This document shows positions 3,430 to 16,481 of a DNA stretch of 19,162 nucleotides, piece by piece (position 1 is the stretch's first letter; every line of letters begins with the position of its first letter). Source of the stretch: Clostridia bacterium (lineage in GTDB: Bacteria > Bacillota > Clostridia > DSM-8532). A model generated the notes under the pieces. It saw only the letters and a program-made list of their open reading frames with translations. It was not told the DNA's origin and did not search any database. A program made the translations under genes and the position numbers. The stretch spans positions 1 through 19,162 of the forward strand of contig JAOABT010000440.1 in NCBI GenBank assembly GCA_026418215.1. The letters are read 5' to 3'.

Positions 3430-3771
3430 TCACATAGCCACTATCTGCTTGATGATAAACTCCCGTCCGCCAAGTAGTTCAAAGTCTGCCTTTGCACAGC
3501 GGGGACAGACACGGCGGTGTTCCTTGACGTTATAAACCTGCCCGCAGGCCCTGCAGCGACCGTTTGCAGGCAGCACCTCAATGTCGAGCCGCGTGTTTTC
3601 AAGCATCGTGCCATGAGCCGCAGCCGGGAAGCACTGCTCAACAAAATAAGGCACGACCGGGGATATCTCCCCGATCTGCAAAACCAATGTCTCAATCTGT
3701 GTCAGCTGTTCTTGCTTGGCTATTGCTTCTACCTGGCGGACAATTTCCACCATGATGCCGAGTTCATGCAT
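3430..3771 (-). CDS. hypA: HypA nickel metallochaperone
   Basis: A 113-residue protein, the normal length for HypA/HybF. It starts with the conserved MHE; His2 is the known nickel ligand of the family. The zinc site has its two CxxC pairs at Cys73/Cys76 and Cys89/Cys92. HypA works with HypB to load nickel into hydrogenases and, in some bacteria, other nickel enzymes. It is the last gene of a four-gene operon, 89 nt after the oxidoreductase, and an AAAGGA lies a suitable distance before the ATG. The gap holds a hairpin (AGACTAT pairing with ATAGTCT, 3791-3811) without a U tract. No hydrogenase subunit, hypC, hypD, hypE or hypF is in the window, so its client here is unknown. Confidence 0.93.
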   Translation of the reverse strand: MHELGIMVEIVRQVEAIAKQEQLTQIETLVLQIGEISPVVPYFVEQCFPAAAHGTMLENTRLDIEVLPANGRCRACGQVYNVKEHRRVCPRCAKADFELLGGREFIIKQIVAM

Positions 3772-3860
3772 AGGGGTTTTCCTTTCAAACAGACTATTCT
3801 TAGTATAGTCTCTGAAGGGGAAGAGTATGTTTCTGACTCTGATTCTCTTTATCCCGTTGA

Positions 3861-6566
3861 TTACTTCTTCTGATGGAGTTTGCTTTTAATCTTCTTTAAG
3901 GCGATTTTCACCTTTCGCTTGAGAACATGGGGAATAATTTTCTTTTTCATGTCCAGAAGTGAAACACCTTCGCCATTGTATCGGCGCGTCAGCGAAATGG
4001 CTTCGAATTTGCATTTGGTGGTACATTGTCCGCAGCCGACGCAGAGGAAATCATCTACCACCACAGCCCCGCAGCCCAGACAGCGCTCGGTTTCCTTTTT
4101 CACCTGCTCTTCTGTCAGCGTTCCGCGGCCGTCTACAAATCCTACTGTGTGGGAAACAGCCGCCTGCTGGCGTGGCATGCGGTCGTAGCTGTCCAGCTCC
4201 AGGGCTGCCTTGTCCAGCGACTTATACTCGCGCTTGTCGCGCCCGATAACAAGGCTCTGTCCTGGCTGAACAAACCGGTGGATGGAGATGGCCGCCTGTT
4301 TGCCCGCGGCGATGGCGTCGATGGCAAACTTCGGGCCGCTGAAGACGTCACCTCCGGCGAAAATATCGGGTTCTGCCGTCTGGTAGGTAAAGCTGTCGGC
4401 ACGAACCGTGCCGTTGGGGTTTCTTTCCACCTTGGTACCAGTCAGCAGCTCTCCCCACTCAATAGACTGACCGATGGATAGCAGCACCCAGTCTGCATCG
4501 ACCAGCATGGTTTGGGTATCGTCGTAGACTGGGGCAAATCGATGGTTTGCATCAAATACCGAGACACAGCGGCGGAAGTTCACTCCCGAAACACGTTCAT
4601 TATTCATCTCAAAACTGCAGGGGCCCCATCCGTTACGTATTGAAATGCCTTCATGGACGGCTTCTTCCACCTCATCGGGTGACGCGGGCATTTCAGCCTC
4701 GCTTTCCAGACAGATCATGGTTACTTCGGAAGCGCCCTTGCGGACGGCCGTGCGGGCCACATCTACGGCTACATTGCCGCCGCCGATGACCACCACCTTG
4801 CCGGAAAGGCGGATGTCCTCTCCCAAATTGACACGCCTTACAAAATCAATGCCCGACAGAATGCCCTCCGCCTGCTCGCCATCCAGGCCAAGCCGACGTC
4901 CGCCCTGTGCGCCAATCGCAAGATAAAAAGCCTCGTAGCCATCCTTTCGGAGGGCTTCAATAGTCACATCACGGCCAACCTCCACTCCTGTACGGAAGGT
5001 CACGCCCAGCTCGCTCAATACACCAATTTCCGCCTCGACAACATCTTTCTGAAGCCGGAAAGCCGGAATACCAAAAGCGAGCATACCGCCCGGTTTCTGC
5101 TGCTTTTCAAACACAGTGACCTTATAGCCGTCAATGGCGAGGAAATAGGCACAGGTCAGCCCGGCCGGCCCGCCACCGATGACGGCAATCTTCTTACCGT
5201 AAGCGTGACGCTTTATTGGTACAAACCTACGATCCTTGTTCAAATCCTGCTCGGCAATGAATTTCTTAATTTCATCAATGGCAATTGGCTCGTCGATATC
5301 ACCACGTGTGCAGGCTGATTCACAGCGACGGTTACAAATGCGCCCGCAGACTGCGGGGAAGGGATTCTCCTTTTTGATGAGCTCGAGAGCATCGGTATAA
5401 CGGCCCTGGGCGGCAAGCTTGATGTATCCCTGAATGCCAATGTGGGCAGGACATTCCGTCTTGCAGGGGGCTGTTCCGGTATCAACAACATTTTTGCGAT
5501 TTGTTCGATATTCGGGGTTCCAGTGCGCGCTGGTCCATTCAGTGTCGCGAGGGGTATCCTTATGTACGATCTTGTCGATTACAGGCTTGGTCGAGCATAC
5601 CCGCTGCCCTAGCTGCAGCGCGTTTACCGGGCAGTTTTCCACACACTGGCCGCAGGCGACGCACTTATCCCTGTCAACCTGAGAAACATAGTTAGAGCGT
5701 ACCATGTCCGCATTCAGGAACATTTCCGCTGTGCGCATGGAAAAGCAGCCGCAGCCGCAGCAGTTACAGATGGCATGTGTTTTCCCGTCGCCGTCCAAAT
5801 TCGGGATTTCATGCATCAGGCCATTCTCCTCAGCCCTCCGAAGAATCTTATAGACCTCATCCTTCGTAACCTGTCTGCCGCGTCCCGTTCGGATATAGTA
5901 TTCGGCGGCATGTCCCATCTGGATACACATATCCTCCTTGAGATGCCCGCAGCCCTCGCCCATGATCTCGCGTGCGGTGCGGCAGGAGCAGTCGGACAGA
6001 GAAAACAGGTCATGCTCTTCAATATGCTTGGAGAGCTCCTCGTAGGAAGCACGGCGGCTTTCGCCGTCGATGGCCTTTTCAATCGGAATCACCCGCATCA
6101 GACCAATCCCGACGGGGGTCATACCCGCGGTTTTGGCGCCGCGGATGCGGCCATAGGCTTCAAAGGCCTCGGCAATCTGCGGAAACTTTTTGGCATTGGT
6201 GGGGTGGTTGGTCATCATCTCCATGATACCCGGCACCCAGGTGTCGTACCAGAAGGTATCCTTGCCGTTTATTGTATTGACAAAGCAAACCCCAACGTCT
6301 GCCAGCTCCAGCAGTATTCTATGGCAATCTGCTACCGCCTTTCCGGTACGTTCAGCCACCGCCTCAGCGGTCACCTTCTCACGGATGGTGAAGGTCATGC
6401 AGATTTCTGCCATTTCGTCAGTCACAACAGGCTCCAGTATCCGGTATTCGGGGGCATCATAGTCATAAGCGTCTTTTGCACCTGGCTTTTTCCGGCCGAT
6501 GTGATTGGCCAGCGCCAGAATTTTCGGGTTACCTTCGGTTTTCGGGGTTTTTATCTGTGTTGTCAT
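3861..6566 (-). CDS. Multi-[4Fe-4S] FAD/NAD(P) oxidoreductase (GltD-like)
   Basis: A 901-residue cytoplasmic electron-transfer flavoprotein. Domains in order: a winged-helix-like N terminus (about 20-110); a Cys-rich module with CSCR (203-206) and CNCCGCGC (near 268-275); a ferredoxin cluster CVACGQCVENCP (302-313); a GltD-type Fe-S domain (PCKTECPAH near 367-375, then cysteines at 417-429); the FAD Rossmann motif GGGPAG (464-469); a second Rossmann motif GGGNVA (595-600) for NAD(P); a second FAD-contact AGGD; and a C-terminal cluster (ERCLGCG, then CVGCGQCTTKC, about 827-852) with a Lys-rich tail. The FAD/NAD(P) part matches the glutamate synthase small-subunit superfamily, where it moves electrons between NAD(P)H and Fe-S partners. 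The ATG at 6566 is chosen because AAAGGATGG precedes it; the frame stays open to an ATG at 6656, which lacks a ribosome binding site. The partner is unknown. Confidence 0.88.
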   Translation of the reverse strand: MTTQIKTPKTEGNPKILALANHIGRKKPGAKDAYDYDAPEYRILEPVVTDEMAEICMTFTIREKVTAEAVAERTGKAVADCHRILLELADVGVCFVNTINGKDTFWYDTWVPGIMEMMTNHPTNAKKFPQIAEAFEAYGRIRGAKTAGMTPVGIGLMRVIPIEKAIDGESRRASYEELSKHIEEHDLFSLSDCSCRTAREIMGEGCGHLKEDMCIQMGHAAEYYIRTGRGRQVTKDEVYKILRRAEENGLMHEIPNLDGDGKTHAICNCCGCGCFSMRTAEMFLNADMVRSNYVSQVDRDKCVACGQCVENCPVNALQLGQRVCSTKPVIDKIVHKDTPRDTEWTSAHWNPEYRTNRKNVVDTGTAPCKTECPAHIGIQGYIKLAAQGRYTDALELIKKENPFPAVCGRICNRRCESACTRGDIDEPIAIDEIKKFIAEQDLNKDRRFVPIKRHAYGKKIAVIGGGPAGLTCAYFLAIDGYKVTVFEKQQKPGGMLAFGIPAFRLQKDVVEAEIGVLSELGVTFRTGVEVGRDVTIEALRKDGYEAFYLAIGAQGGRRLGLDGEQAEGILSGIDFVRRVNLGEDIRLSGKVVVIGGGNVAVDVARTAVRKGASEVTMICLESEAEMPASPDEVEEAVHEGISIRNGWGPCSFEMNNERVSGVNFRRCVSVFDANHRFAPVYDDTQTMLVDADWVLLSIGQSIEWGELLTGTKVERNPNGTVRADSFTYQTAEPDIFAGGDVFSGPKFAIDAIAAGKQAAISIHRFVQPGQSLVIGRDKREYKSLDKAALELDSYDRMPRQQAAVSHTVGFVDGRGTLTEEQVKKETERCLGCGAVVVDDFLCVGCGQCTTKCKFEAISLTRRYNGEGVSLLDMKKKIIPHVLKRKVKIALKKIKSKLHQKK

Positions 6567-6668
6567 TGAAGTCCATCCTTTCCTTGCATTAGCCAGCCCG
6601 ACTTCGCAGAACTGATACCCGCCCCTACCATGGCTTGTGCGGAATGTCGGTGTCATACCGATCCGGAT

Positions 6669-6704
6669 GCAAAGCCTCAGAGACTCATCCTACTCTGCTT
6701 ATCG
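6669..6704 (-). CDS. Possible 11-residue peptide after hypB
   Basis: The end of hypB contains GGAGGAAATGA, where GGAGG could serve as a ribosome binding site but sits very close to the ATG. An in-frame ATG there would encode MSTDKQSRMSL before a stop, within the otherwise non-coding 142-bp gap between hypB and the oxidoreductase. It could help re-initiation or be chance. The rest of the gap shows no clear feature besides the oxidoreductase ribosome binding site. Confidence 0.12.
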
Positions 6705-6708
6705 GTGC

Positions 6709-7377
6709 TCATTTCCTCCATGCTGTCACTTCGTCACGCAGCCATTGTATCCATTCGTCCAACCCTTCGCCTGTTCGGGCACAAATCGGAATCACCCTTG
6801 CCTTCGGGTTAAGCTTGTTCACTCGCTCACGAACAGCATGTAAATCGAAATCGAAATATTGTAAAACGTCAGTCTTGTTCACAAGAATCACATCACAGAT
6901 GGAAAACATCAGCGGGTACTTGAGGGGTTTGTCGTCGCCCTCCGGCACGGATAGGATCATCGCATTCTTAGAGGCGCCGGTGTCAAATTCCGCAGGGCAT
7001 ACCAGATTGCCGACATTCTCCAAAATGGCCAGATCCACTCCGGATACATCCAACCCGACCAATCCTTGCCGTGTCATGCCTGCGTCCAAGTGGCACATGC
7101 CCCCCGTATGGAGCTGTATGACCTTTACGCCGGTTTCGGCAATGGCTCTTGCATCCACATCGGAATCGATGTCCGCCTCCATGACGGCGATCCTCAGCTC
7201 GTCCTTCAGCCGTGCGATGGTCTGGCGCAGCGTGGTGGTCTTGCCAGCCCCCGGTGAGGACATGAGATTGAGCAAAAAGACCCCCTGCCTTTTTAACTCC
7301 TCACGTAGTATTTCAGCTTCACGATCGTTGCTCTCAAACACACTCGCCTTAATGTCCAGAATTCGGAATTCACCCAT
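6709..7377 (-). CDS. hypB: HypB nickel-incorporation GTPase
   Basis: A 222-residue P-loop GTPase of the SIMIBI class. Walker A is SSPGAGKTT (residues 40-48), followed by EADIDSDVDA (66-75), the metal-site segments GGMCHLDA (Cys94, His95) and ENVGNLVCPAEFD (Cys126), and the guanine-specific NKTD. HypB hydrolyses GTP to hand nickel, with HypA, to a target enzyme. This copy has no His-rich N-terminal tract and no N-terminal CxxCGC site, so nickel storage is unlikely and only the G-domain metal site is present. AGGAGTG precedes the ATG, which lies 12 nt after the membrane-protein stop, so the two are translationally close. Its own client is not visible nearby. Confidence 0.95.
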   Translation of the reverse strand: MGEFRILDIKASVFESNDREAEILREELKRQGVFLLNLMSSPGAGKTTTLRQTIARLKDELRIAVMEADIDSDVDARAIAETGVKVIQLHTGGMCHLDAGMTRQGLVGLDVSGVDLAILENVGNLVCPAEFDTGASKNAMILSVPEGDDKPLKYPLMFSICDVILVNKTDVLQYFDFDLHAVRERVNKLNPKARVIPICARTGEGLDEWIQWLRDEVTAWRK

Positions 7378-7389
7378 AACTTACACTCC

Positions 7390-8373
7390 TTATTCGGCCA
7401 GCTGACGTATTTCCTGATATGCAGGGAGGTCGGTATAAAGCTCGGCTTTGTAAGGATTGCGGCCTGTCTTGCGCGCTTTTAGAACCATATAGATCAATAC
7501 TGCGATATTTACCAGCAGTGCTGCCAGACTTACGATAAAATAGATGGTCCGATTGTAGGTGGAATCCACCCTGAACGGGCCCGCATCCTGAAACATCGGG
7601 AAGGTTTGGGCAAACATGCACCACATCGCCAAAGTCTGTGCCCGATGCTGGAGCCATGCGCCTTTTCCAACTGTAAAGGCACACAGGGTAGGAGCCAGTA
7701 AAAGCGCCAGCCCGCAGTACCATGAATGATGCGGCAGGCAGTTATATGTATAGGCAAAGTTCCACAGATCATACGCGATAATCCAGAACCAGAGCATATC
7801 CGGCCACAGCATATCCCGGCTTCCGTCAAACTTAGTTTTTTTGCGGATCACAATCCCAAACCACCCTGTGATGGTTATGATATTGAGGAGTCCGGCAATG
7901 GCGTTCATAAAATTCCAGGGACCGCCCATCAGGTAAACCGGCGTATCCGCCGTCTTATCCAGCGCCATAACAGCGTATGAGATTCCGACTTCAATGTCAC
8001 GTGCACAGGCTTCCAGTATATTGATAGCCAGTATCAGAGGCGGGAAGCAAAGCGCGATCCTATTTGATGACAGCTCCCAAATGGTGCCGTCCTTCCTTCT
8101 GATACGCAAAAAACGGATGAGCCAAAAGCCGATACAGCCGGCCGTTGAGGAATAGACCTTCATAAGGTGAAACCAGTCGGTATAGGTACTGCTTTTCAAG
8201 ACCGTAAACCATAGCACGGAAAGGATTACCGGCAGGACGACGAACACGGCAAACCCAACCCATTTGAATCGGCGTGTCAGCTCGTTGGCTGCAAAAAGAG
8301 CAGCAAGAACACAGAGCCAAACTAAAAGTGTTGGGACAATGTTTGCACCAGCGGCTACGTTGAAAGTAAACAT
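7390..8373 (-). CDS. Polytopic membrane protein, DUF5692-like
   Basis: A 327-residue integral membrane protein with about eight or nine hydrophobic segments spread over its length and short charged loops. I believe it belongs to the DUF5692 family of unknown function, judged from memory of overall appearance and not from a search. A distinctive central motif, AYDLWNFAYTYNCLPHHSW (about 203-221), places a Cys and two adjacent His residues next to a membrane segment; these could bind a metal, but that is inference. An ATG two codons upstream (8379) is in frame, but GGGAG is only 2 nt from it and 8 nt from the chosen ATG. It is the first gene of the hypB, oxidoreductase and hypA operon. Nickel or substrate transport, or anchoring of the redox enzyme, are possible roles. 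Confidence 0.7.
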   Translation of the reverse strand: MFTFNVAAGANIVPTLLVWLCVLAALFAANELTRRFKWVGFAVFVVLPVILSVLWFTVLKSSTYTDWFHLMKVYSSTAGCIGFWLIRFLRIRRKDGTIWELSSNRIALCFPPLILAINILEACARDIEVGISYAVMALDKTADTPVYLMGGPWNFMNAIAGLLNIITITGWFGIVIRKKTKFDGSRDMLWPDMLWFWIIAYDLWNFAYTYNCLPHHSWYCGLALLLAPTLCAFTVGKGAWLQHRAQTLAMWCMFAQTFPMFQDAGPFRVDSTYNRTIYFIVSLAALLVNIAVLIYMVLKARKTGRNPYKAELYTDLPAYQEIRQLAE

Positions 8374-8444: not shown

Positions 8445-8455
8445 TGGTTAGACCA
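8445..8455. promoter_or_regulatory. GntR/FCD-type operator in the hyp operon leader
   Basis: TGGTTAGACCA matches the TGGTnnnACCA palindrome bound by FadR/FCD-subfamily GntR regulators. It lies about 15-25 bp downstream of the predicted start of the minus-strand operon, a position suited to blocking transcription. Confidence 0.65.
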
Positions 8456-8596: not shown

Positions 8597-8609
8597 CTGG
8601 TTGAACCAG
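8597..8609. promoter_or_regulatory. GntR/FCD-type operator at the regulator gene
   Basis: CTGGTTGAACCAG is a perfect 13-bp palindrome with a single central base. Its core TGGTTGAACCA fits the same TGGTnnnACCA pattern as the site at 8445-8455. It lies between the predicted start of transcription and the start codon of the GntR gene. Confidence 0.7.
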
Positions 8610-8637
8610 TATCACTAGAATGGATCGGAGGACGGCT

Positions 8638-9342
8638 ATGGAGTTTTCAAAATTGAGTGCGCCTTCGCTTAAGGAGTTGTTTGTCCGGGAACTGGAATCT
8701 ATGATTCTGTCCGGGCGCTTACCGATTGGCACGCAGCTTCCGCCCGAACGAGATCTTGCCGGTTCCATGCAAGTAAGCCGGGCTGTCGTCAATTCAGGTA
8801 TCGTCGAGCTGGCGCGCAAGGGCTTCTTAGTGATACGTCCCCGTGTTGGAACGTTTGTGGCGGACTATCGGCGGAACGGGACTATCGAGACGTTTTTATC
8901 TATTGTATCCTACAACGGAGGAATGCTGCGAAACGACGAGGTGCGCTCCATTCTGGAGCTGCGGATCGCTCTGGACAAGCTGGCGGTAGAGCTTTGTTCC
9001 TTAAAAATAACTGATGATGAGCTTGCAAATCTCCGGGCAAGCGTGGAAGCACTTGGTAAGGCAAAAACACCCGATGAGGCGGTCTCTCACGCCTTTGCTT
9101 TTCAGCACCAGCTCGCACTGTACTCCAACAACACCCTTCTGCCCGTTATTTTCAGCTCCTTCAAAGCGCTGACGCGTACCCTTTGGCTGCGATACTGTAC
9201 CCTTTACGGGATTTCTTCTCTGTATGAAAACACACGAGTGCTGTTCAGCCATCTCGAAAAGAGGGATTTTGAAGGTGCGATTCAAAGCCTGACGGCTACG
9301 ATCCAGGACAGTATCTCCGGCAGCAGGCCGATTTATTACTGA
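8638..9342 (+). CDS. GntR-family (FCD subfamily) transcriptional regulator
   Basis: A 234-residue regulator. Residues about 8-75 form the GntR winged helix (LKELFVRELESMILSGRL, then QLPPERDLA, QVSRAVV and RPRVGTFV), and about 85-225 form an all-helical FCD effector domain (NDEVRSILELR onward). FCD proteins bind small organic acids and usually repress nearby metabolic genes. In this copy the C-terminal helix reads ENTRVLFSHLEKRD where a His is common, so the usual metal site may be altered. The ATG at 8638 is chosen because GGAGG lies 6 nt before it; an ATG at 8620 in the same frame has no ribosome binding site. Two TGGTnnnACCA operators in the divergent intergenic region suggest it controls itself and the hypAB-oxidoreductase operon. 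The effector is unknown. Confidence 0.92.
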   Translation: MEFSKLSAPSLKELFVRELESMILSGRLPIGTQLPPERDLAGSMQVSRAVVNSGIVELARKGFLVIRPRVGTFVADYRRNGTIETFLSIVSYNGGMLRNDEVRSILELRIALDKLAVELCSLKITDDELANLRASVEALGKAKTPDEAVSHAFAFQHQLALYSNNTLLPVIFSSFKALTRTLWLRYCTLYGISSLYENTRVLFSHLEKRDFEGAIQSLTATIQDSISGSRPIYY

Positions 9343-9468
9343 TGGAATGCGGGTTTGGATATCCCTAACGATAGAAGCGACCCCAAGGGAATATTTACAA
9401 TTTACAAAAGACCAAAGCTAAGGTGGTAAATTTTCAGGGGAAAACCCGGTAAGGTAGGGGTAAAACAT

Positions 9469-9510
9469 AACAAGCGGCTTTCAGTTATTAGCTGAAAGCC
9501 GCTTGTTTTT

Positions 9511-9511
<1 letters not shown>
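9469..9511 (+). terminator. Strong hairpin terminator between gntR and tRNA-Met (possibly two-way)
   Basis: AACAAGCGGCTTTCAG (9469-9484) pairs perfectly over 16 bp with 9492-9507 around a 7-nt loop. A T run follows on the plus strand, so it ends gntR transcription. On the minus strand the same hairpin directly follows the tRNA 3' end and is followed by a weaker T-rich stretch. The 126 bp between the gntR stop and this hairpin show no gene. Confidence 0.85.
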
Positions 9512-9588
<77 letters not shown>

Positions 9589-9611
9589 ACGTCATTTTTT
9601 AGCGCTTTCTT

Positions 9612-9640
9612 AGTATAACACCGGCTTTAAAATTTTACAA
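9612..9640 (-). promoter_or_regulatory. Promoter of the initiator tRNA gene
   Basis: On the minus strand TTGTAA (9640-9635) is 17 bp from TATACT (9617-9612). The predicted start near 9605 is about 17 nt before the mature tRNA 5' end. Confidence 0.65.
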
Positions 9641-9678
9641 GCACTTTTGACGTATTCCCAAAAATTTATATTATTTCC

Positions 9679-10818
9679 CTAAGCTGCTGCCGCTTCCTTT
9701 CTGCTGAAGCCGTAGACAGCGACTGCGAAAAAGGCTAATGCAAAGGCTGTTACGACGAGGATATTCGTGGATACGTCGCCCAGGGATTTGCCATACATTA
9801 TGCTCTCAATGGCATCCAGTGTCCAGCGCTGGGGGAACAGGTGAGAGATATTCTGCATGAACACCGGCATCATTTTTACGTCCCAGAAGCAGCCTGAGAC
9901 AAGACAAGTCGGGTAGATTACAAGCGTGCAGAGGATGTTCAGCTGGCTTTCGTTCTTTGCAAAGGCTACCAGCATTAATGTTACACCAACGGAGGCAACT
10001 AACAGCGGGAAAAGTACGAGCATCATGGAGAGCGGGTCTACACCCATCTCCACATGGAAGGCATATTTTAATAGAAATAAAGTTGCAAGGGTTTGAAGCG
10101 TCACCAGGCTTACGTTTACAAATACGTTTCCCATAATGAACTGGTGACCCTTAACCGGAGTACAACGGATGCGGGCCAAGGTTTTCTGCTTGCGTTCTTT
10201 TATAATATAGGCTGCTGTTCTTTGGGTGCCAATAAGAACAAATTGAATCAAGAAGCCAATCCCAAGGTATGTAATGCTAAGGCCCGCAGACACGTTCTTG
10301 ACACCCTTGGTTTCGACAGGGATGATACTGGCTTGATTCTCTTCATAAAGGCTCTTGAAGGCGGCGAGATCGCCGTTGGAGGCCTTGGCAAGAATGGCTG
10401 TATTGGGAAGCGTCGTATTGAGAAAGCTTTCAACCCAACCCGTTGCGGCAACACCCTGAACGGAAAGAACCTGAATCATTTTGGGAGTTCCGGTAAGGTA
10501 GCTGCTTGTGAAGCCCTCAGGAATGACAAGTGCACAATCAAGCTTACCCGAGGAGATGGCCTCGTTGACACTGGCCTCATTAATGTCTTTGATTTGGAAG
10601 CGCTTCTGGCCCTTAAGCTCTTCGTAAACAGCTTTTGAAAGAAATTCCGAATCCTTGTTGATAACACCAACACGGATATAGCTTGTACTGGCATTGCTGA
10701 ACATCACGAGGGGAATGATGATGCCGATTATAGGCAGCAAGATGTAAATGACGACACTATTTTTAGTTCTGAACAATATTTTAAACAGATTCTTGGCAAT
10801 CAGGATAATGTTATTCAT
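9679..10818 (-). CDS. ABC-2 type exporter permease (second of two)
   Basis: A 379-residue membrane protein of the ABC2_membrane_3 (NatB/YhaP/DrrB-like) type. One N-terminal membrane helix (about 18-40) is followed by a large extracytoplasmic domain (about 45-170) and then five or six helices to the C terminus. The conserved RTAAYIIKERKQKTLARIRCTPV cytoplasmic segment marks the ATPase-contact region. Its ATG overlaps the stop of the preceding permease by four bases (ATGA), and GGAGG lies 7 nt before it, so the two are translationally coupled and probably form a heterodimer. The substrate is unknown; drugs, antimicrobial peptides or lipids are typical for the family. Confidence 0.9.
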   Translation of the reverse strand: MNNIILIAKNLFKILFRTKNSVVIYILLPIIGIIIPLVMFSNASTSYIRVGVINKDSEFLSKAVYEELKGQKRFQIKDINEASVNEAISSGKLDCALVIPEGFTSSYLTGTPKMIQVLSVQGVAATGWVESFLNTTLPNTAILAKASNGDLAAFKSLYEENQASIIPVETKGVKNVSAGLSITYLGIGFLIQFVLIGTQRTAAYIIKERKQKTLARIRCTPVKGHQFIMGNVFVNVSLVTLQTLATLFLLKYAFHVEMGVDPLSMMLVLFPLLVASVGVTLMLVAFAKNESQLNILCTLVIYPTCLVSGCFWDVKMMPVFMQNISHLFPQRWTLDAIESIMYGKSLGDVSTNILVVTAFALAFFAVAVYGFSRKEAAAA

Positions 10819-11948
10819 GCGTAGACCTCCTTTTTAGACAGAACCGAGGAGATGGCCAGGAACACAATGGCTATACCCAGGTATAAGGCAATAGTGGTTC
10901 CGAAGGTTGAGTAATCATTGGCGTAGATGACCTGCAAAAGTGTTTGGTTCAGCCATTTTACAGGTGACAGCCAGGCAATCTGCGAGATGATGCCGCCAAT
11001 GCCCATGAGCTCCAGGTTTACATATCCGCCCCCAAGGAAAATCAGGATGGGGATAAGTGTGTTTAAAATGGTGGTTCCTGTTGAATTTTCCTTAAAGAGA
11101 TAGGCCATACCCACACCGACCGACACAACCATGATGATTTGCGCAAGCAAAATGGCTGCTACTGCAGGGATGTTGGTTCCCCATTCGGTTTTCAGAACAA
11201 ATTTGTCAAAGAAGAAGACGATAACCACCTGCAGACAGGTGACGAGAGTCATGCCTGTGACCTTGGACACAAGGATTTCTGCATTTTTGACCGGGGAAAG
11301 CACCATTCTGGACAGGGTCCTCTGCTGGCGCTCATCGGAAATGAGGCTGGAGCCTGCGGGGCCTGCGTACATAATGATGAGTGTAAGCATGGTAAGGGCA
11401 TAATAATCGAGGGCACGAGGTGCCTTTTGCTTTTGAAGCGAGACGCTTTCAGTATATTTACTCCCAGTGCTCTCGTCTTGGGAATTCAGGTCTTTAAGGC
11501 TTAAAGGGTTAACTTTTGCCACGGTCATAATTGTATTGAATTTGCTTGCGTAGGCTTTAACCATGGTTTCAGCAATCTGGCCGCTCATGGTTCCGCCATC
11601 GCGCATGGTAATAACAATGCGGTCATCACCAACCTCGATATAGCAGGCCGAGTCCCCGAATTTAACAGCATTTAAGGCTTTCTCAGGGGTTTCCTCCTTT
11701 AGGTAGAGCTTTTCCTTTTCAATCTGGGGGACGAAATCCTTCTTAAAGGCGGCCGCCATGGGGGAGTTTCCTTCGATATGATAATAGGCGTCAATACGGG
11801 TGGGACCGCTGTTGCTGGAGAACATATTAGACAACGAAGCACCTAATACGAGAGTCAAGACAATGGGAAAGACTATCGTGAAGATCATACCGTTCCGGTC
11901 TCTCACAAGCTGCTTAATTTCCTTGATAACGAGCGATAATGTACGCAT
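10815..11948 (-). CDS. ABC-2 type exporter permease (first of two)
   Basis: A 377-residue paralogue of the next gene with the same plan: N-terminal helix (about 18-38), long extracytoplasmic domain (about 40-200) and a C-terminal block of about five helices. The coupling segment is SDERQQRTLSRMVLSPV. The ATG at 11948 is preceded by AGGAGG at 6 nt and lies one base after the ATPase stop. A GTG at 11966 in the same frame would overlap the ATPase gene and is less likely. It should pair with the following permease and the ATPase encoded just upstream to form one exporter. Confidence 0.9.
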   Translation of the reverse strand: MRTLSLVIKEIKQLVRDRNGMIFTIVFPIVLTLVLGASLSNMFSSNSGPTRIDAYYHIEGNSPMAAAFKKDFVPQIEKEKLYLKEETPEKALNAVKFGDSACYIEVGDDRIVITMRDGGTMSGQIAETMVKAYASKFNTIMTVAKVNPLSLKDLNSQDESTGSKYTESVSLQKQKAPRALDYYALTMLTLIIMYAGPAGSSLISDERQQRTLSRMVLSPVKNAEILVSKVTGMTLVTCLQVVIVFFFDKFVLKTEWGTNIPAVAAILLAQIIMVVSVGVGMAYLFKENSTGTTILNTLIPILIFLGGGYVNLELMGIGGIISQIAWLSPVKWLNQTLLQVIYANDYSTFGTTIALYLGIAIVFLAISSVLSKKEVYA

Positions 11949-11949
11949 A

Positions 11950-12894
11950 TCAAGCCTCCTGATCACGGAGCTTACGACCTGTAAGGCTTAAAAAGACGGT
12001 TTCAAGGTCGGGTGTCCGGTTTTCGATGTTTTTGATGGTGTTGTGCGTTCCGATGAAATACTGGATAATTCGGTCCAAGTTCATAACATCTCTTGATGTG
12101 GAGACGCGGATATCATTTTCAGAAATATCAACATTTTTAACGCCGGGAATCTTGAGAAGCTCTTTATCATTGACCTTGTAGGGGTTTTCCACAGTGACGA
12201 ACAGAGTGTCGGTGTCACTAATGATGGACTTCAAATCGGCTTCGGTGCCCTCAGCAATGACCTTCCCGAAATCCATAATGGCTATTCTGGAGCAAACCTC
12301 TTCAACCTCTTCCATGTAATGGCTGGTGTAGATGATGGTGCTTCCCCGCTTGTTAAGCTCTTTAACCGATTGAAGGATGTGATTTCTGGATTGGGGATCA
12401 ATACCTACGGTAGGTTCGTCCATAATGATAAGCTTGGGCTTATGCGCAATGGCGCAGGCGATATTGAGACGGCGCTTCATACCTCCGGAAAAGCCTTTTG
12501 GGAAACGCTTGGCGTGTTCTGAAAGACCTACGAACTCCAGAGCTTCTTCAGCATTCTGCTGCAACTCCCTGCCCTTGATGCCATAAAGCCCTGCAAAGAA
12601 GCTGACGTTTTCATAGGCGGTGAGGTCGCCGTAGATGGCGATATCCTGTGGAACCAAGCCAATAGTGGTCTTGGCAAACAAGGCATTCTTGGCGACGTCC
12701 TTGTCAAAGAGTTTGATGGTGCCGCTGTCCGGGTTGATCAGCCCCGAAATCATGTTGATGGTGGTGCTTTTCCCGGCGCCATTGGGTCCTAGCAATCCGA
12801 AAATCTCGCCTTCCTGAACAGAAAGGTCAATATTGTCGACGGCGGTGATGTCTCCAAATCTTTTTACGAGTCCGTTAAGCTGAAGTGCCTTCAT
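11950..12894 (-). CDS. ABC transporter ATP-binding protein (exporter type)
   Basis: A 314-residue ATPase with every key motif: Walker A GPNGAGKST (36-44), Q-loop Gln83, signature FSGGMKRRL (135-143), Walker B LIIMDEP (155-161) and H-loop His192. The length, with about 90 residues after the H-loop, matches the DrrA/CcmA-like subfamily that partners ABC-2 permeases. The ATG at 12894 has GAGGAG 7 nt upstream; a TTG at 12909 in the same frame would bury that site. It is the first gene of the three-gene exporter operon, downstream of an activator-type promoter. Confidence 0.95.
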   Translation of the reverse strand: MKALQLNGLVKRFGDITAVDNIDLSVQEGEIFGLLGPNGAGKSTTINMISGLINPDSGTIKLFDKDVAKNALFAKTTIGLVPQDIAIYGDLTAYENVSFFAGLYGIKGRELQQNAEEALEFVGLSEHAKRFPKGFSGGMKRRLNIACAIAHKPKLIIMDEPTVGIDPQSRNHILQSVKELNKRGSTIIYTSHYMEEVEEVCSRIAIMDFGKVIAEGTEADLKSIISDTDTLFVTVENPYKVNDKELLKIPGVKNVDISENDIRVSTSRDVMNLDRIIQYFIGTHNTIKNIENRTPDLETVFLSLTGRKLRDQEA

Positions 12895-12935
12895 ATTAAA
12901 ACTCCTCAATCATCAAAATCATTTGCTACACTTTG

Positions 12936-12970
12936 ATTATAGAGGAGCCCAGGTGAATGACAGAAGTCCA
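12936..12970 (-). promoter_or_regulatory. Activator-dependent promoter of the ABC exporter operon
   Basis: A perfect TATAAT (minus, 12941-12936) lies 42 bp before the ATPase start codon. The -35 position at optimal spacing reads TCTGTC or TTCTGT, a poor match. A degenerate copy of the upstream palindrome (ATGAC-AGA-AGTCCA, 12957-12970) covers that -35, as expected for a promoter that needs a bound activator. Confidence 0.5.
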
Positions 12971-12986
12971 AAAGGTCATGAATAGT

Positions 12987-13087
12987 ACGTGACTTTAGTC
13001 ACGTTTAAAGAGGTACATGACTTTAGTCATGCAAAAAGAGGTACGTGACTAAAGTCACGTTAAAAGAAGTTATGAGTAAAGTCATAA
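12987..13087. repeat. Array of four palindromes at 27-28 bp period (regulator boxes)
   Basis: Four near-identical inverted repeats sit between the response regulator and the exporter genes: ACGTGACTTTAGTCACGT (12987-13004), CATGACTTTAGTCATG (13016-13031), ACGTGACTAAAGTCACGT (13043-13060) and TTATGAGTAAAGTCATAA (13070-13087, one mismatch). Their centres are 28, 28 and 27 bp apart, and the linkers also resemble each other (AAAGAGGTAC-like). A shorter palindrome GTAATGTCATTAC (13097-13109) follows. The likely binder is the NarL-type regulator encoded next door. The remaining 13110-13277 contains a weak AATGGT/ACCATT stem but no gene I can support. Confidence 0.8.
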
Positions 13088-13277
13088 ACATAATAAGTAA
13101 TGTCATTACACATATATTAAGGTTTACATGATGAGAAAGATGGAGCCACTAATATCTATAAGTAAATGAGAAAGGATGTAGCAGTCATAAGCAGAAACCT
13201 TGTACTATCAACATCGAATCATATCAATGGTATGTAGAGAGACCATTCATCCTGCATAAAGCCTTTACTTAACATCT

Positions 13278-13931
13278 TCAAGGACGCAGAGTCCCCCCGT
13301 TTATATAGTAAATGGCCACCTGAGTACGGTGCTCAAGCCCTGTCTTGTCGAGAATGGAGGTGATGTGGTTTTTGACCGTTCCTTCCGAGATAAAGAGGGT
13401 CGATGCGATCTCACGGTTTGAAAGCCCCTCGGAGATTAAACGCATGATTTCAAGCTCCCGTTCGGAGAACAGACTGGTGTCTATGCTTTTTTTTGCAGAA
13501 GGCTGTGAGCTTCCTGAAAGATTATCCTTGAGCTTCTCAAGGACGACGTTCTCCATTACGGAACCGCCCTGGTGGACAAGCTTGACGGCCGCTTTGATTT
13601 TGTCAGGTGTATTATTCTTTAATAAATAGCCCTTGGCTCCCGACTGTATAGCATCCCTGATATGGGAGTCGTCATCAAAGGTTGTAAGAATGAGAACCTT
13701 CGTCTTTGTCCGCTCGCAAATTTCCTTGGTAGCTGCAACGCCATCCATGACGGGCATGCGGATATCCACCAGCGCAACATCTATTTCAGGGTGCCCAAGG
13801 CAGGCATCAACTGCCTGACGGCCATTTTCAGCACAGGCAATTATCTGAAAGTCAGGGTCCATGCCCAGGATAATATTGAGTCCCTCGCGAATTAAGGCAT
13901 CATCATCTGCCAAAAGAAGTCGTATGGCCAT
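13278..13931 (-). CDS. NarL/FixJ-type response regulator
   Basis: A 217-residue two-domain regulator. The receiver (about 1-120) has the acidic pocket DDD (9-11), phospho-acceptor Asp56 in VDIRMP, the switch Thr in LILTT and the conserved Lys in GYLLKN. The C-terminal LuxR helix-turn-helix (about 150-215) contains SERELEIMRLISEGLSNREIA and SEGTVKNHI. It overlaps the end of the kinase gene by 29 bp and should be its partner. Three in-frame starts are possible; the ATG at 13931 has GGAGG 9 nt upstream, while the one at 13937 is too close to it. It probably binds the palindrome array and switches on the ABC exporter. Confidence 0.94.
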   Translation of the reverse strand: MAIRLLLADDDALIREGLNIILGMDPDFQIIACAENGRQAVDACLGHPEIDVALVDIRMPVMDGVAATKEICERTKTKVLILTTFDDDSHIRDAIQSGAKGYLLKNNTPDKIKAAVKLVHQGGSVMENVVLEKLKDNLSGSSQPSAKKSIDTSLFSERELEIMRLISEGLSNREIASTLFISEGTVKNHITSILDKTGLEHRTQVAIYYINGGTLRP

Positions 13932-15039
13932 TTGCATCCCCCTCCAATGGAACAAGCATAGTGAGTGAAAAGCCCTTGGAGCCCTCCACCAGCAGGCGGC
14001 CGCCTACGGTTAAGAGCCTTTCCTCCATGCCGGCAAGGCCCAAACCCTTTTTAATCGGGCCTGTGACCAAACCGTTGTCTGTTATTTGATAGCGTATCAT
14101 CTTGTTCATGACGAAAATGGACACGACAACGCTGTCAGCCTTGGAATGTCTCAAGAGATTGGTAAGAGCCTCAGAGGTATTTTCAAAAAAGATTTTCCAG
14201 AACAGCGGCGTCAGCTTGGAAATGTCACCCTCATAATGTAAGGAGGTCTGAATGCCGTGCTTTTCTTTAAAATCGTTCAAAATGAGCTGCAATCGATTAA
14301 GACCCATTTGCTCGGAGGGCGGCTTGATGTTTCGCAGTGTCATGCGGATATTCTCAAGCCCCGTTCTTAGGGTCGCAATAACGGTATCCATCATGGAGGC
14401 TGCTTTTTGCGGGTCCTTCAGTGAAATGACCTTAATGGCCTCAAGCTGCATCAGGCTCCCGGAGATGGAATGGCCCACTTTATCATGGATTTCCTGCGCA
14501 ATTTTATTTCGTTCCTCCAACTGTGTGGTATAGGTGAGCTGCTGCCTGATTTCTTCTCCAATGGAAAGCTTTTTGTGAAGCCTGTCATTCAAAAGTCTCA
14601 ACTGGTCGTTTTGCTTTTGCAGGTTTACAAGCTTGCTGTCCCGATTTTGAAGCAGATAGATGATAGAAGCAAAACCAATTGCCAAAAAGTACTCGCCCTC
14701 AAGGTGATATTGAATGGACAAGGGGAGTAAAAATAGAATAATGAGAGAAGCATAAAGAGGATTAACGCTTAAATTAAAAAAGATTTCTGTCACGATTATG
14801 GGGACAAGCAGAAGCAAGCTTTGGTTATCGGGCAGGAACCCGGCTATTAAAAGGATGGAGGCGATTTGCAGTGCTAATCGGACATATTTACTTTTCATGA
14901 CCGGTACCAGAACAGACAGGGCCATCAGCAAGAGCACTGCCATCAGTGTCAGGGCCATGGTGCCTGTGAACACACCGGGTTTTGTATAAATACAATAAAT
15001 CAGTAGAATAATCTTTATGAACAAAAAAGGTTTACCCAT
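13903..15039 (-). CDS. NarL-family membrane sensor histidine kinase (HisKA_3)
   Basis: A 378-residue kinase. Residues 1-130 form about five or six membrane helices with only short loops, which suggests that it senses something in the membrane or a membrane transporter rather than through a periplasmic domain. A coiled linker (about 133-180) leads to the HisKA_3 dimerisation domain, with phospho-acceptor His195 in AQEIHDKVGHS, and then an HATPase domain with the N box (ENTSEALTNLLRHS) and the G box GLGLAGM. This layout resembles the DesK/LiaS/YvfT kinases of Firmicutes. TAGGAG lies 7 nt before the ATG. The regulator gene overlaps its 3' end, and the exporter operon follows. Confidence 0.93.
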   Translation of the reverse strand: MGKPFLFIKIILLIYCIYTKPGVFTGTMALTLMAVLLLMALSVLVPVMKSKYVRLALQIASILLIAGFLPDNQSLLLLVPIIVTEIFFNLSVNPLYASLIILFLLPLSIQYHLEGEYFLAIGFASIIYLLQNRDSKLVNLQKQNDQLRLLNDRLHKKLSIGEEIRQQLTYTTQLEERNKIAQEIHDKVGHSISGSLMQLEAIKVISLKDPQKAASMMDTVIATLRTGLENIRMTLRNIKPPSEQMGLNRLQLILNDFKEKHGIQTSLHYEGDISKLTPLFWKIFFENTSEALTNLLRHSKADSVVVSIFVMNKMIRYQITDNGLVTGPIKKGLGLAGMEERLLTVGGRLLVEGSKGFSLTMLVPLEGDANGHTTSFGR

Positions 15040-15077
15040 GCCATATGCTCCTATAACCCGGGGAAGCGCTTATTTTC

Positions 15078-15106
15078 ATTCTATCATTGGTTCTAAATAC
15101 GAGCAA
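15078..15106 (-). promoter_or_regulatory. Promoter of the kinase-regulator operon
   Basis: On the minus strand TTGCTC (15106-15101) is 17 bp from TAGAAT (15083-15078), about 39 bp before the kinase start. No copy of the exporter palindrome is present here, so the two-component genes do not seem to use the same box. Confidence 0.5.
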
Positions 15107-15153
15107 GAAAGCATTTGGTTCAGTAAATTGTAATGGTAATTTTTACCCTTGGG

Positions 15154-15182
15154 TTGATTTATGAAACCTCAGTTGATATAAT
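15154..15182 (+). promoter_or_regulatory. Promoter of the riboswitch-NlpC/P60 transcript
   Basis: TTGATT (15154-15159) is 17 bp from a perfect TATAAT (15177-15182). Transcription from about 15189 would include the whole riboswitch. Confidence 0.65.
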
Positions 15183-15232
15183 GAACGAAGCATATGGAAT
15201 AAAACGTTATATTTTTGTAACAAATATGCAAC

Positions 15233-15346
15233 AAGGCTGAATCTTTCGAACAGAGAGTACGGAGGACCCATTTATTGGGGTTAATCCATGGTTTCCATGG
15301 TAGGGTTTCCTATTACCCGCACCCGTCAGCTAACTCCGGAAGCCTT
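15233..15346 (+). ncRNA. c-di-AMP riboswitch (ydaO/yuaA type)
   Basis: The closing P1 helix is AAGGCT (15233-15238) with AGCCTT (15341-15346). Conserved core blocks of the class are recognisable: GGAGGACCCA (15261-15270) followed by GGGGTTAATCC, a short CCATGG-TTT-CCATGG hairpin, GGGT/ACCC (15303-15318), and CCCGTCAGCTAACTCCGG (15322-15339), which matches the highly conserved 3' core CCGUCAGCUAACCUCG. The class binds c-di-AMP and usually lowers expression of cell-wall hydrolase and ion-transport genes when the ligand is present. The ribosome binding site starts only 4 nt after P1 and no terminator stands between them, so control of translation is more likely than termination. Confidence 0.88.
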
Positions 15347-15363
15347 AAATAGGAGGAACATTA

Positions 15364-16359
15364 ATGAAAAAACCAAAGTCAATCAATCTCTCCCTGGTGG
15401 TTTTGACACTGCTTTTTCTGCTGTCACAAACCACATTTGCCCTAACGGCTTCCGTATCTCTTGAGGGCAATCCGCAACAGACTCCACCACAGGCAACAAC
15501 TCAGGACATCGGCACAGATAGAAGCGTAAGCAAGACTTCCGTTTACGATGATCCTCAGAACTTCGAAATGATGAAGGCTGCTGCATCTGCTGTCAATGCT
15601 GACACAGCTGCTCCCCAGGTTATGATGGCTTCTGTTGTTACACAGGCCGTGACCGCAGCTCAAGCAGATCCAACTCCCGCAAAGGAATCCGCTAAGCCCG
15701 TTGTCCGCTACATCAATGCCAATGAACTCAATGTGCGTGCTGAAGCAAACGCAGACAGCAAGCTCGTTGGAACCTTAAAGCGCGGCGATAAGGTTACCTT
15801 CTATGAAAACGTTGGTGAATGGGCTAAGATCAAGACCTGGAGCGACAAGGACGGTTATATCCTCGCTAAGTTCCTCGTTAACAGCGAAAAAGAGGTTGAC
15901 AAGGATGAGGCTGCCGAGCCTGTCAAAAAGGTTTCCAGAGGCTCTGTTGAATCTGCGAAGTCTTCTGAACCCACCGATGAGGAACGCTCGCTGATCCAAA
16001 AAATCGTAAGCTACAGCAAGTCCCTTCAGGGCGTCAAGTATGTTTACGGTGGCTATTCAACAAAAGGCTTCGATTGCTCCGGCTTTACCAAGTATGTTTA
16101 TGCAAGGTATGGTATTGAACTTCCCCGTTCCGCCTCCGAATACTGGGGCTTCGGCAAGAAGGTTTCCCGTTCGGATTTAAGACCCGGTGACATTCTTCTC
16201 TTCGATACCGACGGCGGCTCAGCTGATGTCAGCCATGTCGGCATATATGTTGGAAACGGAAGCTTCATTCACGCCTCCACCTACAAGGGCCATGTCATCG
16301 TGATGTCACTGGCTGAGTATCGTGGTAAGTACATGGGAGCAAGAAGAATCATCAATTAA
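15364..16359 (+). CDS. Secreted SH3b-NlpC/P60 peptidoglycan endopeptidase
   Basis: A 331-residue exported wall hydrolase. A signal peptide (about 1-28: Lys-rich start, hydrophobic LSLVVLTLLFLL) is followed by a low-complexity Ala/Thr/Pro region (30-110), a bacterial SH3 domain (about 112-173, with ELNVRAEANADSKLVGTL and GYILAKFL), a charged linker and an NlpC/P60 catalytic domain (about 210-331). The catalytic residues are present: Cys238 in FDCSG, His291 in DVSHVG and His303 as the third polar residue. The family cleaves the D-Glu to meso-DAP or related stem-peptide bond. AGGAGG lies 7-8 nt before the ATG and directly after the c-di-AMP riboswitch. It is monocistronic, with its own terminator. 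Confidence 0.96.
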   Translation: MKKPKSINLSLVVLTLLFLLSQTTFALTASVSLEGNPQQTPPQATTQDIGTDRSVSKTSVYDDPQNFEMMKAAASAVNADTAAPQVMMASVVTQAVTAAQADPTPAKESAKPVVRYINANELNVRAEANADSKLVGTLKRGDKVTFYENVGEWAKIKTWSDKDGYILAKFLVNSEKEVDKDEAAEPVKKVSRGSVESAKSSEPTDEERSLIQKIVSYSKSLQGVKYVYGGYSTKGFDCSGFTKYVYARYGIELPRSASEYWGFGKKVSRSDLRPGDILLFDTDGGSADVSHVGIYVGNGSFIHASTYKGHVIVMSLAEYRGKYMGARRIIN

Positions 16360-16388
16360 TCATAAGCGACAAATAAATAGGAAAATTT

Positions 16389-16417
16389 AAGCGCATTGAG
16401 TGATCAATGCGCTTTTT
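16389..16417 (+). terminator. Terminator of the NlpC/P60 gene
   Basis: AAGCGCATTG (16389-16398) pairs with CAATGCGCTT (16405-16414) around a 6-nt loop and runs into TTTTT. It lies between convergent genes; on the minus strand it is followed by AAATTTT, so it may also weakly terminate the sensor kinase transcript. Confidence 0.85.
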
Positions 16418-16481
16418 GTACGACGGTGAATCCTTGCCTCAAGCCGCTTTGTTCATGCTGATGGGGAGTACGACGGTGAAT
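16418..16481. repeat. 14-bp direct repeat at the 3' end of the sensor kinase gene
   Basis: GTACGACGGTGAAT occurs at 16418-16431 and again at 16468-16481, exactly 50 bp apart. The second copy lies within the kinase gene (codons for EFTVVLP); the first lies just past its stop codon, beside the terminator. This could be the remnant of a small tandem duplication. Confidence 0.6.

Follow-up and report, generated by a model that had tools for sequence, protein, structure and literature searches.

A conserved clostridial locus joining an IsrA-type oxidoreductase with HypA, HypB and a DUF5692 membrane protein

The described system closest to the locus analyzed here is the isr operon of Acetobacterium wieringae, which encodes HypA, HypB and IsrA, a putative isoprene reductase of 901 residues, and whose host genome lacks a NiFe hydrogenase (Kronen et al., 2023; PMC10134865; all statements on this paper refer to the part of it that was available). 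Isoprene induces IsrA together with HypA/HypB, and IsrA has been proposed as a nickel client, with a six-cysteine site as the possible place of the metal (PMC10134865). For the neighborhoods of 988 IsrA homologs, co-occurrence values of 0.73 for HypA, 0.56 for HypB, 0.4 for DUF5692 and 0.21 for TetR were given; in the literature searched, the available part of this paper was the only text with DUF5692, which it mentions once and to which it assigns no function. In addition, "putative diene reductase cluster" is the name that the locus received in a 2025 genome note, and an Acetobacterium strain with the same type of cluster converts 1,3-butadiene into 1-butene (PMC12509576).

Here, we analyzed a window, that is, a whole stretch of 19,162 nucleotides from a Clostridia bacterium, in which the initial annotation had recognized four co-directional genes for a DUF5692-like protein, HypB, a 901-residue oxidoreductase and HypA. 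This gene content was confirmed by the minus-strand coordinates and by Pfam and NCBIfam profiles (Table 1), and Pfam matches of ten other ORFs, the larger ones of the window, agreed with the annotation in revealing no hydrogenase and no Hyp family beyond HypA and HypB. In the order DUF5692-HypB-oxidoreductase-HypA, the coordinates leave intergenic gaps of 12, 142 and 89 bp. The DUF5692 gene may alternatively start at the ATG at 8373 chosen initially, which gives a protein of 327 residues and fits the ribosome-binding-site spacing as judged by eye. HypB scored 244.7 bits with TIGR00073 (hypB; cut-off 121.2) and carries the G-domain CHxnC metal residues (C95, H96 and C127), which were kept in all 58 aligned sequences. 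HypA scored 85.9 bits with TIGR00100 (hypA), slightly below the cut-off of 88.1, which counts against the reading preferred below; the N-terminal MHE, the two CxxC zinc motifs and PF01155 are all present, and the four zinc cysteines were kept in 76 of 76 aligned HypA sequences and H2 in 75. An Rfam scan of the window gave no match at gathering score in the operon region. The window also holds a c-di-AMP riboswitch (RF00379, 95.3 bits) at 15225-15360 (+), directly upstream of an ORF with SH3_3 and NLPC_P60 domains (15364-16359), and a tRNA-Met (anticodon CAT) at 9512-9589 (-), downstream of the regulator gene.

Table 1. Features of the locus, with positions in the window
Feature	Position	Strand	Evidence
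HypA-type nickel metallochaperone, MHE start and two CxxC	3430..3771	-	PF01155, E 5.7e-31
901-aa FAD/NAD(P) multi-[Fe-S] oxidoreductase, IsrA (clade 9) kind	3861..6566	-	PF07992 (E 1.5e-27), PF14691 (E 3.8e-21), PF00037
HypB-type nickel GTPase, His-rich N-terminus absent	6709..7377	-	PF02492 (3.4e-22); TIGR00073
DUF5692 polytopic membrane protein, 329 aa	7390..8379	-	PF18948, 393.1 bits (cut-off 27), E 1e-117
Operator-like palindrome TGGTTAGACCA, operon-proximal	8445..8455	.	Pattern search and comparison of intergenic regions
Operator-like palindrome TGGTTGAACCA, regulator-proximal	8598..8608	.	Pattern search and comparison of intergenic regions
GntR/FCD (FadR-type) transcriptional regulator, divergent from operon	8620..9342	+	PF00392 (5.1e-15), PF07729 (3.1e-11)

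The oxidoreductase has the domain composition of the IsrA type (clade 9), with about 900 residues, PF07992 and PF14691, and two extra 4Fe-4S motifs (C302/305/308/312 and C842/845/848/852) that were kept in all 57 oxidoreductases aligned. Eleven N-terminal residues (C193, C195, C206, H208, C214, H252, C267, C269, C270, C272 and C274) were likewise kept in 57 of 57 sequences and in all 121 of a second set, the window protein being counted in each set. The CxC pairs C193xC195 and C267xC269, together with the first ferredoxin motif, lie at a constant offset of +13 from the IsrA positions printed in the available part of PMC10134865, and these two CxC pairs, which correspond to those of the six-cysteine site of IsrA (Cys180-182 and Cys254-256), recur in 57/57 and 121/121 sequences; this match is one of position and pattern taken from printed residues, with the IsrA sequence itself outside the alignment. 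The window protein is 56% identical to its homolog from Acetobacterium fimetarium (L074), a species for which the same paper lists a clade 9 homolog and which it places in cluster II; a reductase homolog has also been published for Acetobacterium woodii. Approximately residues 360-769 align with the flavoprotein module of NfnB, GltD and dihydropyrimidine dehydrogenase (4ylf, 6s6s and 1h7x), whereas the N-terminal 290 residues, with the Cys/His-rich site, were the best stretch of none of the 14 PDB matches.

Judged from the available part of PMC10134865, the isr operon resembles the window in the 901-residue oxidoreductase, its domains and cysteine pattern, the HypA/HypB neighbors and a genome free of NiFe hydrogenase matches. 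However, it has two HypA and an ENOG4105DQ9 4Fe-4S protein, whereas the window operon has one HypA and no such protein, and the DUF5692 gene and GntR/FCD regulator of the window locus distinguish it from the isr operon; the strict isr gene set (two HypA, HypB, oxidoreductase and ENOG4105DQ9 protein) was not found in the window operon. The locus is real, conserved and functionally coherent, and it is a member of a published family: the neighborhood of oxidoreductase, HypA, HypB and DUF5692 already appears in that part of PMC10134865, so the initial proposal of an undescribed system had to be given up. To the published picture the present analysis adds four points: other nickel clients were eliminated, DUF5692 was seen to be co-inherited, a pair of operators was recognized and a role was proposed for DUF5692.

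The linkage to hypAB, suggested at the outset as a point to check in homologous neighborhoods, turned out to be conserved. The best 80 of 314 loci with DUF5692 relatives were examined for neighbors (hereafter the best 80 loci); 35 of them hold HypB, the oxidoreductase and HypA together, and 51 hold HypA or HypB. Partial sets comprised HypB with oxidoreductase (3), oxidoreductase with HypA (2), HypB with HypA (1) and HypA alone (10), and in the remaining 29 none of the three partners was seen in the fetched DNA, some being clipped by contig ends. Chance adjacency of hypAB was rejected in view of this conserved linkage across loci. Divergent DUF5692 proteins (32-45% identity) are still joined to other genes of the set (L102, L103, L105-L107, L113 and L114), and a plasmid record of Subdoligranulum variabile (OY725877.1) carries the regulator, HypB, oxidoreductase, HypA and DUF5692 together. 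Forty DUF5692 loci have no oxidoreductase nearby; 39 of their genomes were searched (that of L029 was left out), 31 of which have one elsewhere (E<=1e-100) and eight of which gave none at this threshold, which counts against the preferred reading. A TetR regulator is the recurrent neighbor of DUF5692 loci without the reductase, and nine same-strand neighbors (one in each of nine loci) come from unrelated families and thus give no functional hint. In the L003 genome, three HypA of equal score lie within about 7 kb, and a second reductase piece and HypA follow the operon (9001-17991).

In ten loci (L005, L006, L008, L009, L011, L012, L019, L023, L024 and L054), DUF5692 is followed by HypA, with neither HypB nor the reductase. 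Seven of these ten genomes have a reductase elsewhere; the other three (G044, G045 and G050, all MAGs) gave none at E<=1e-100 with HypA adjoining DUF5692, which again speaks against the preferred reading. From the side of the oxidoreductase, the 19 best-scoring of the loci found elsewhere in the 31 genomes named above (L082-L100; no DUF5692 in their 1.5-kb flanks) contain HypA in 19 cases and HypB in 13, and 40 further oxidoreductase places (L121-L160) have HypA in 32, HypB in 21 and DUF5692 in 11 cases within a few kb. The eight places without HypA, one at a contig edge and four with DUF5692 instead, count against the same reading; six of the eight belong to genomes with several copies. Three of the eight, L127, L129 and L130, each hold a reductase paralog and two DUF5692 copies with no HypA or HypB within a few kb, so DUF5692 tracks the oxidoreductase even without HypAB.

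Across 291 genomes of the class, DUF5692 was found in 18, the oxidoreductase (E<=1e-150) in 22 and both in 15, compared with about 1.4 expected from the counts (Fisher p 3e-17, kinship ignored). Nine family labels are represented among the 15 genomes, and the sample overlaps with the DUF5692 locus set in at least one genome, G125, from which L018 comes. DUF5692 occurs alone in three genomes, where the match is partial (G190), weak (G348) or clipped by a contig end (G250). DUF5692 tends to be inherited with the oxidoreductase. Seven genomes have the oxidoreductase with no DUF5692 match, and in all seven it lies beside HypA and HypB, so the oxidoreductase with HypAB also occurs without DUF5692.

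Which protein receives the nickel was approached through a set of 42 genomes, namely those of the 41 among the best 80 loci with HypB or the oxidoreductase near DUF5692, plus the window's own. The initial annotation had raised the matter of a second hyp set and a [NiFe] hydrogenase in such genomes: HypD is present in 19 of the 42, which counts against the preferred reading, and profile searches found no HypD in the other 23, the window's own (G000) included. Among these 23, 21 gave no match to the NiFe large subunit, G035 gave a partial one and G038 one below cut-off. Matches of at least 100 bits were found to urease in one (G030), to CODH in five (G007, G012, G028 and G038 over the cut-off, G035 a fragment) and to LarA in four (G012, G017, G028 and G038), and 16 of the 23, with the window's genome among them, have no such match to the NiFe large subunit, urease, CODH or LarA. 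In 11 of these 16 there are CODH-profile matches of 20-38 bits, below cut-off, and urease or LarA profiles matched some of the 16 over short stretches at 20-30 bits, in a few cases slightly over the cut-offs; these weak matches are presumably other proteins. At E<=0.001, neither the NiFe large subunit nor HypD, urease, CODH or LarA was matched in the window's own assembly (82.6% complete, 6.3% contaminated), HypD being the member of hypCDEF that the profile searches covered. Its HypA and HypB belong to the families of [NiFe]-hydrogenase maturation, with the same metal-binding residues, and differ from that system in a genome without a HypD or hydrogenase match.

A single strong HypA (at least 90 bits) was found in 21 of the 23 HypD-less genomes, and two in G001 and G034. 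In 17 of the 21 this HypA, when compared, was the locus copy (99-100% identical); G006, G010 and G012 offered no locus to compare, and the HypA of G028 lies on another contig. The five HypA proteins beside HypD that were compared share only 33-37% identity with the locus type. HypD, the one gene of hypCDEF that was placed, could be positioned relative to the locus HypA in ten genomes (G003, G014, G015, G018, G019, G025, G026, G029, G031 and G040), where the two are either on different contigs or separated by more than 400 kb; as far as HypD goes, the immediate vicinity of hydrogenase or hypCDEF genes, which the initial annotation had named as evidence against its view, was thus not seen there. 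In G014, G019, G031 and G040, no strong HypA other than the locus copy was present; a hydrogenase may therefore share it in these genomes, a point against the preferred reading. HypAB therefore very probably serve a non-hydrogenase client, as initially suggested, judging from the 23 genomes without HypD and the single HypA in 21 of them. The likeliest client appears to be the oxidoreductase, because HypA and HypB stay beside it in all seven genomes that have it without DUF5692. In five of the best 80 loci (L030, L036, L046, L050 and L055), DUF5692 is followed by an ECF transporter of the nickel/cobalt type, with genes for a CbiM-PDGLE protein, CbiQ and an ATPase, as seen by a Pfam scan of L050 and by similarity grouping of the other four; the PDGLE domain is a marker of nickel transporters.

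The initial annotation had also pointed to a Cys-x-x-His-His motif in DUF5692 (C214 with H217-H218) and to nickel use by the oxidoreductase or the membrane protein. The oxidoreductase is still the likeliest client, and the case for the membrane protein lost its motif, which is no family feature: H217 is present in 22 of 94 close homologs and H218 in 92, and in a wider alignment of 91 sequences the 43 invariant columns include no Cys or His, C214 being nearly invariant and H217/H218 not. A role of DUF5692 as haem or nickel carrier through this motif was consequently rejected, the nickel carrier having no sequence support. The invariant columns include N32, E33, R36, W69, K74, Y76, R89, N120, E123, R127, W155, N156, N159, W173, W206, N207, Y210, Y212, W242 and R246, whose polar members look like an enzyme-type set. 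An AlphaFold2 model of DUF5692 (mean pLDDT 90.6) has nine helices of at least 15 residues; Foldseek returned 331 matches at E<=10 and none at E<=0.001, and the top VIA-align rows, 7-TM receptors and rhodopsins, were all weaker than that threshold. Neither of the two structural models run through Foldseek matched at E<=0.001, which counts against the preferred reading, and the DUF5692 profile found nothing at E<=1 among PDB sequences. EBP-type sterol isomerases, which we had supposed to be possible structural relatives, are absent among the matches listed.

The window holds two copies of the palindrome TGGTNNNACCA, each in the stretch that separates the regulator from the operon; shuffled sequences held 0.21 on average and reached two in 7 of 200 cases. 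In 52 intergenic rows, which separate the gene for a similar regulator from that for HypB, DUF5692 or the oxidoreductase (the window being counted twice, also as L111), at least one site is present in 44 and at least two in 27, and these rows contain 72 sites in 11,517 bp compared with 117 in all 1,996,969 bp searched. An exact site was missing from eight rows, all of them DUF5692-HypA loci of the Lacrimispora kind (the ten listed above except L023 and L054), and a one-mismatch copy was present in all four inspected. As a regulon marker the operator was rejected, since an extended pattern was genome-wide no rarer than chance (sites versus backward control: 9 versus 25 in G000, 6 versus 14 in G024 and 17 versus 9 in G005). 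Other extended-pattern sites, seven in G000 and four in G024, all lie inside ORFs by a simple ORF caller, although one site is close to where a 97-residue ORF ends and about 110 bp ahead of the next ORF, so the regulator looks local in these two genomes.

Taken as a whole, the explanation that we consider reasonably probable is a diene/ene reductase with nickel inserted by HypAB, acting on the same substrate as DUF5692 and repressed by the GntR/FCD protein. The IsrA-family reductase, an NAD(P)H-dependent flavin/iron-sulfur enzyme, would saturate a C=C bond of a hydrophobic compound, most likely a conjugated diene, as an anaerobic electron sink or a detoxification step. NAD(P)H would feed electrons via FAD and the [4Fe-4S] chain into the N-terminal Cys/His-rich nickel site, where the double bond would be reduced, HypB and HypA having inserted the metal into this cluster site. 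DUF5692 may isomerize the same substrate, admit it or hold the reductase at the membrane, and the regulator may bind the two TGGTNNNACCA operators and keep its own gene and the operon repressed as long as no inducer is present. This reading draws on the IsrA-like architecture and cysteine pattern, the isoprene and 1,3-butadiene links of related clusters, the HypA neighbors, the single HypA copies and their low identity to HypA beside HypD, the ECF transporters of five loci, the co-occurrence of DUF5692 with the reductase, and the operators. Against it, we know of no DUF5692-linked member with an established substrate, metal content or activity, and IsrA itself is called putative. If the reductase holds nickel, it would be a new kind of nickel enzyme and would explain HypA/HypB in many anaerobes free of NiFe hydrogenases; should DUF5692 prove to be its partner in isomerizing or gating the substrate, a function would be at hand for a large family.

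Other explanations deserve consideration. HypAB are known for roles with ordinary nickel enzymes, and they may serve a hydrogenase, urease, CODH or lactate racemase encoded elsewhere and stand in the operon by accident, in keeping with the 19 HypD-bearing host genomes and the hydrogenase-bearing ones with locus-type HypA only; the lack of such nickel-enzyme matches in the window's genome and in 16 of 23 HypD-less ones, together with linkage conserved across many families, makes this highly improbable. It is scarcely more probable that DUF5692, a polytopic neighbor of HypAB found with HypA but without HypB or reductase in 10 of the best 80 loci, is itself a nickel transporter or a donor for HypAB: its motif varies, it accompanies the reductase in the three loci with no HypA/HypB nearby, and five loci have a separate CbiM-PDGLE/CbiQ/ATPase transporter in the gene run.

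HypAB could also be needed only for folding or for zinc or iron, the reductase having iron-sulfur clusters and no nickel. The candidate ligands, cysteines and two histidines, also occur in Fe-S sites, and the available part of PMC10134865 gives no metal measurement for IsrA; the metal-binding residues kept in HypA and HypB and the adjoining CbiM-PDGLE transporter in five loci argue the other way, and we regard this explanation as unlikely. In another scheme, which we hold to be somewhat unlikely, the family reduces something other than a diene (an activated ene, quinone or sulfur compound) and DUF5692 acts as its electron partner in the membrane. In favor of this scheme, the related flavoproteins GltD and NfnB perform varied chemistry, and the GntR-linked lineage has no known substrate. 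Against it, the members found with an experimental link act on isoprene (available part of PMC10134865) and 1,3-butadiene (PMC12509576), and DUF5692 has no invariant histidine pair for a b-type haem.

Within the diene reductase reading, a more specific and rather doubtful idea is that DUF5692 and the IsrA-type enzyme catalyze the isomerase and reductase steps by which clostridia biohydrogenate polyunsaturated fatty acids. Conjugation of the double bonds would then fall to DUF5692 as the membrane-bound isomerase, and the IsrA-type enzyme, as a nickel-containing reductase, would turn the conjugated diene into the trans monoene; if true, HypAB would mature, with none of the remaining Hyp machinery, a class of nickel enzyme not yet among those known. 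In its favor, IsrA has been tied to conjugated-diene reduction (PMC10134865, part available), and Clostridium sporogenes is a fatty-acid biohydrogenator with a membrane-bound linoleate isomerase, for which, as for that of Butyrivibrio fibrisolvens, the available parts of PMC12254105 and PMC13365329 give no gene. DUF5692 is likewise a membrane protein, linked to a reductase of the conjugated-diene type, and of this pair the reductase is the one found in C. sporogenes: six named entries are 79-80% identical to the query from L076, and all 27 checked Cys/His were kept in each. Oleate hydratase (MCRA) gave strong matches in 29 of the 291 genomes, including 6 of the 22 with the reductase and 6 of the 18 with DUF5692 (Fisher 0.014 and 0.005, respectively, kinship ignored), and it lies inside the gene run of three of the best 80 loci (L038, L051 and L074), all TetR-linked and with reductases only 56-58% identical to the window's. 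The window's own genome gave only a weak match to it (9.4e-4, below cut-off). Oleate hydratase is thus only moderate support for a fatty-acid substrate. Against the biohydrogenation idea stand this lack of a strong match and the origin of the hints, which were gathered in the TetR-linked lineage or on proteins sharing 58-59% identity with the window's. The locus supplies named candidate genes for the old question of fatty-acid biohydrogenation.

The DUF5692 family comprises at least 5716 protein clusters (7999 candidates scored). A divergent query reached entries named Exiguobacterium, Vibrio metschnikovii and Oerskovia, names which indicate that the family is not restricted to strict anaerobes; its occurrence under the latter two names also counts against the preferred reading. 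A plasmid record of Latilactobacillus curvatus, by its name a lactic acid bacterium, likewise carries the family, as a solitary DUF5692 adjoining a weak TetR-like ORF (L119; CP117684.1).
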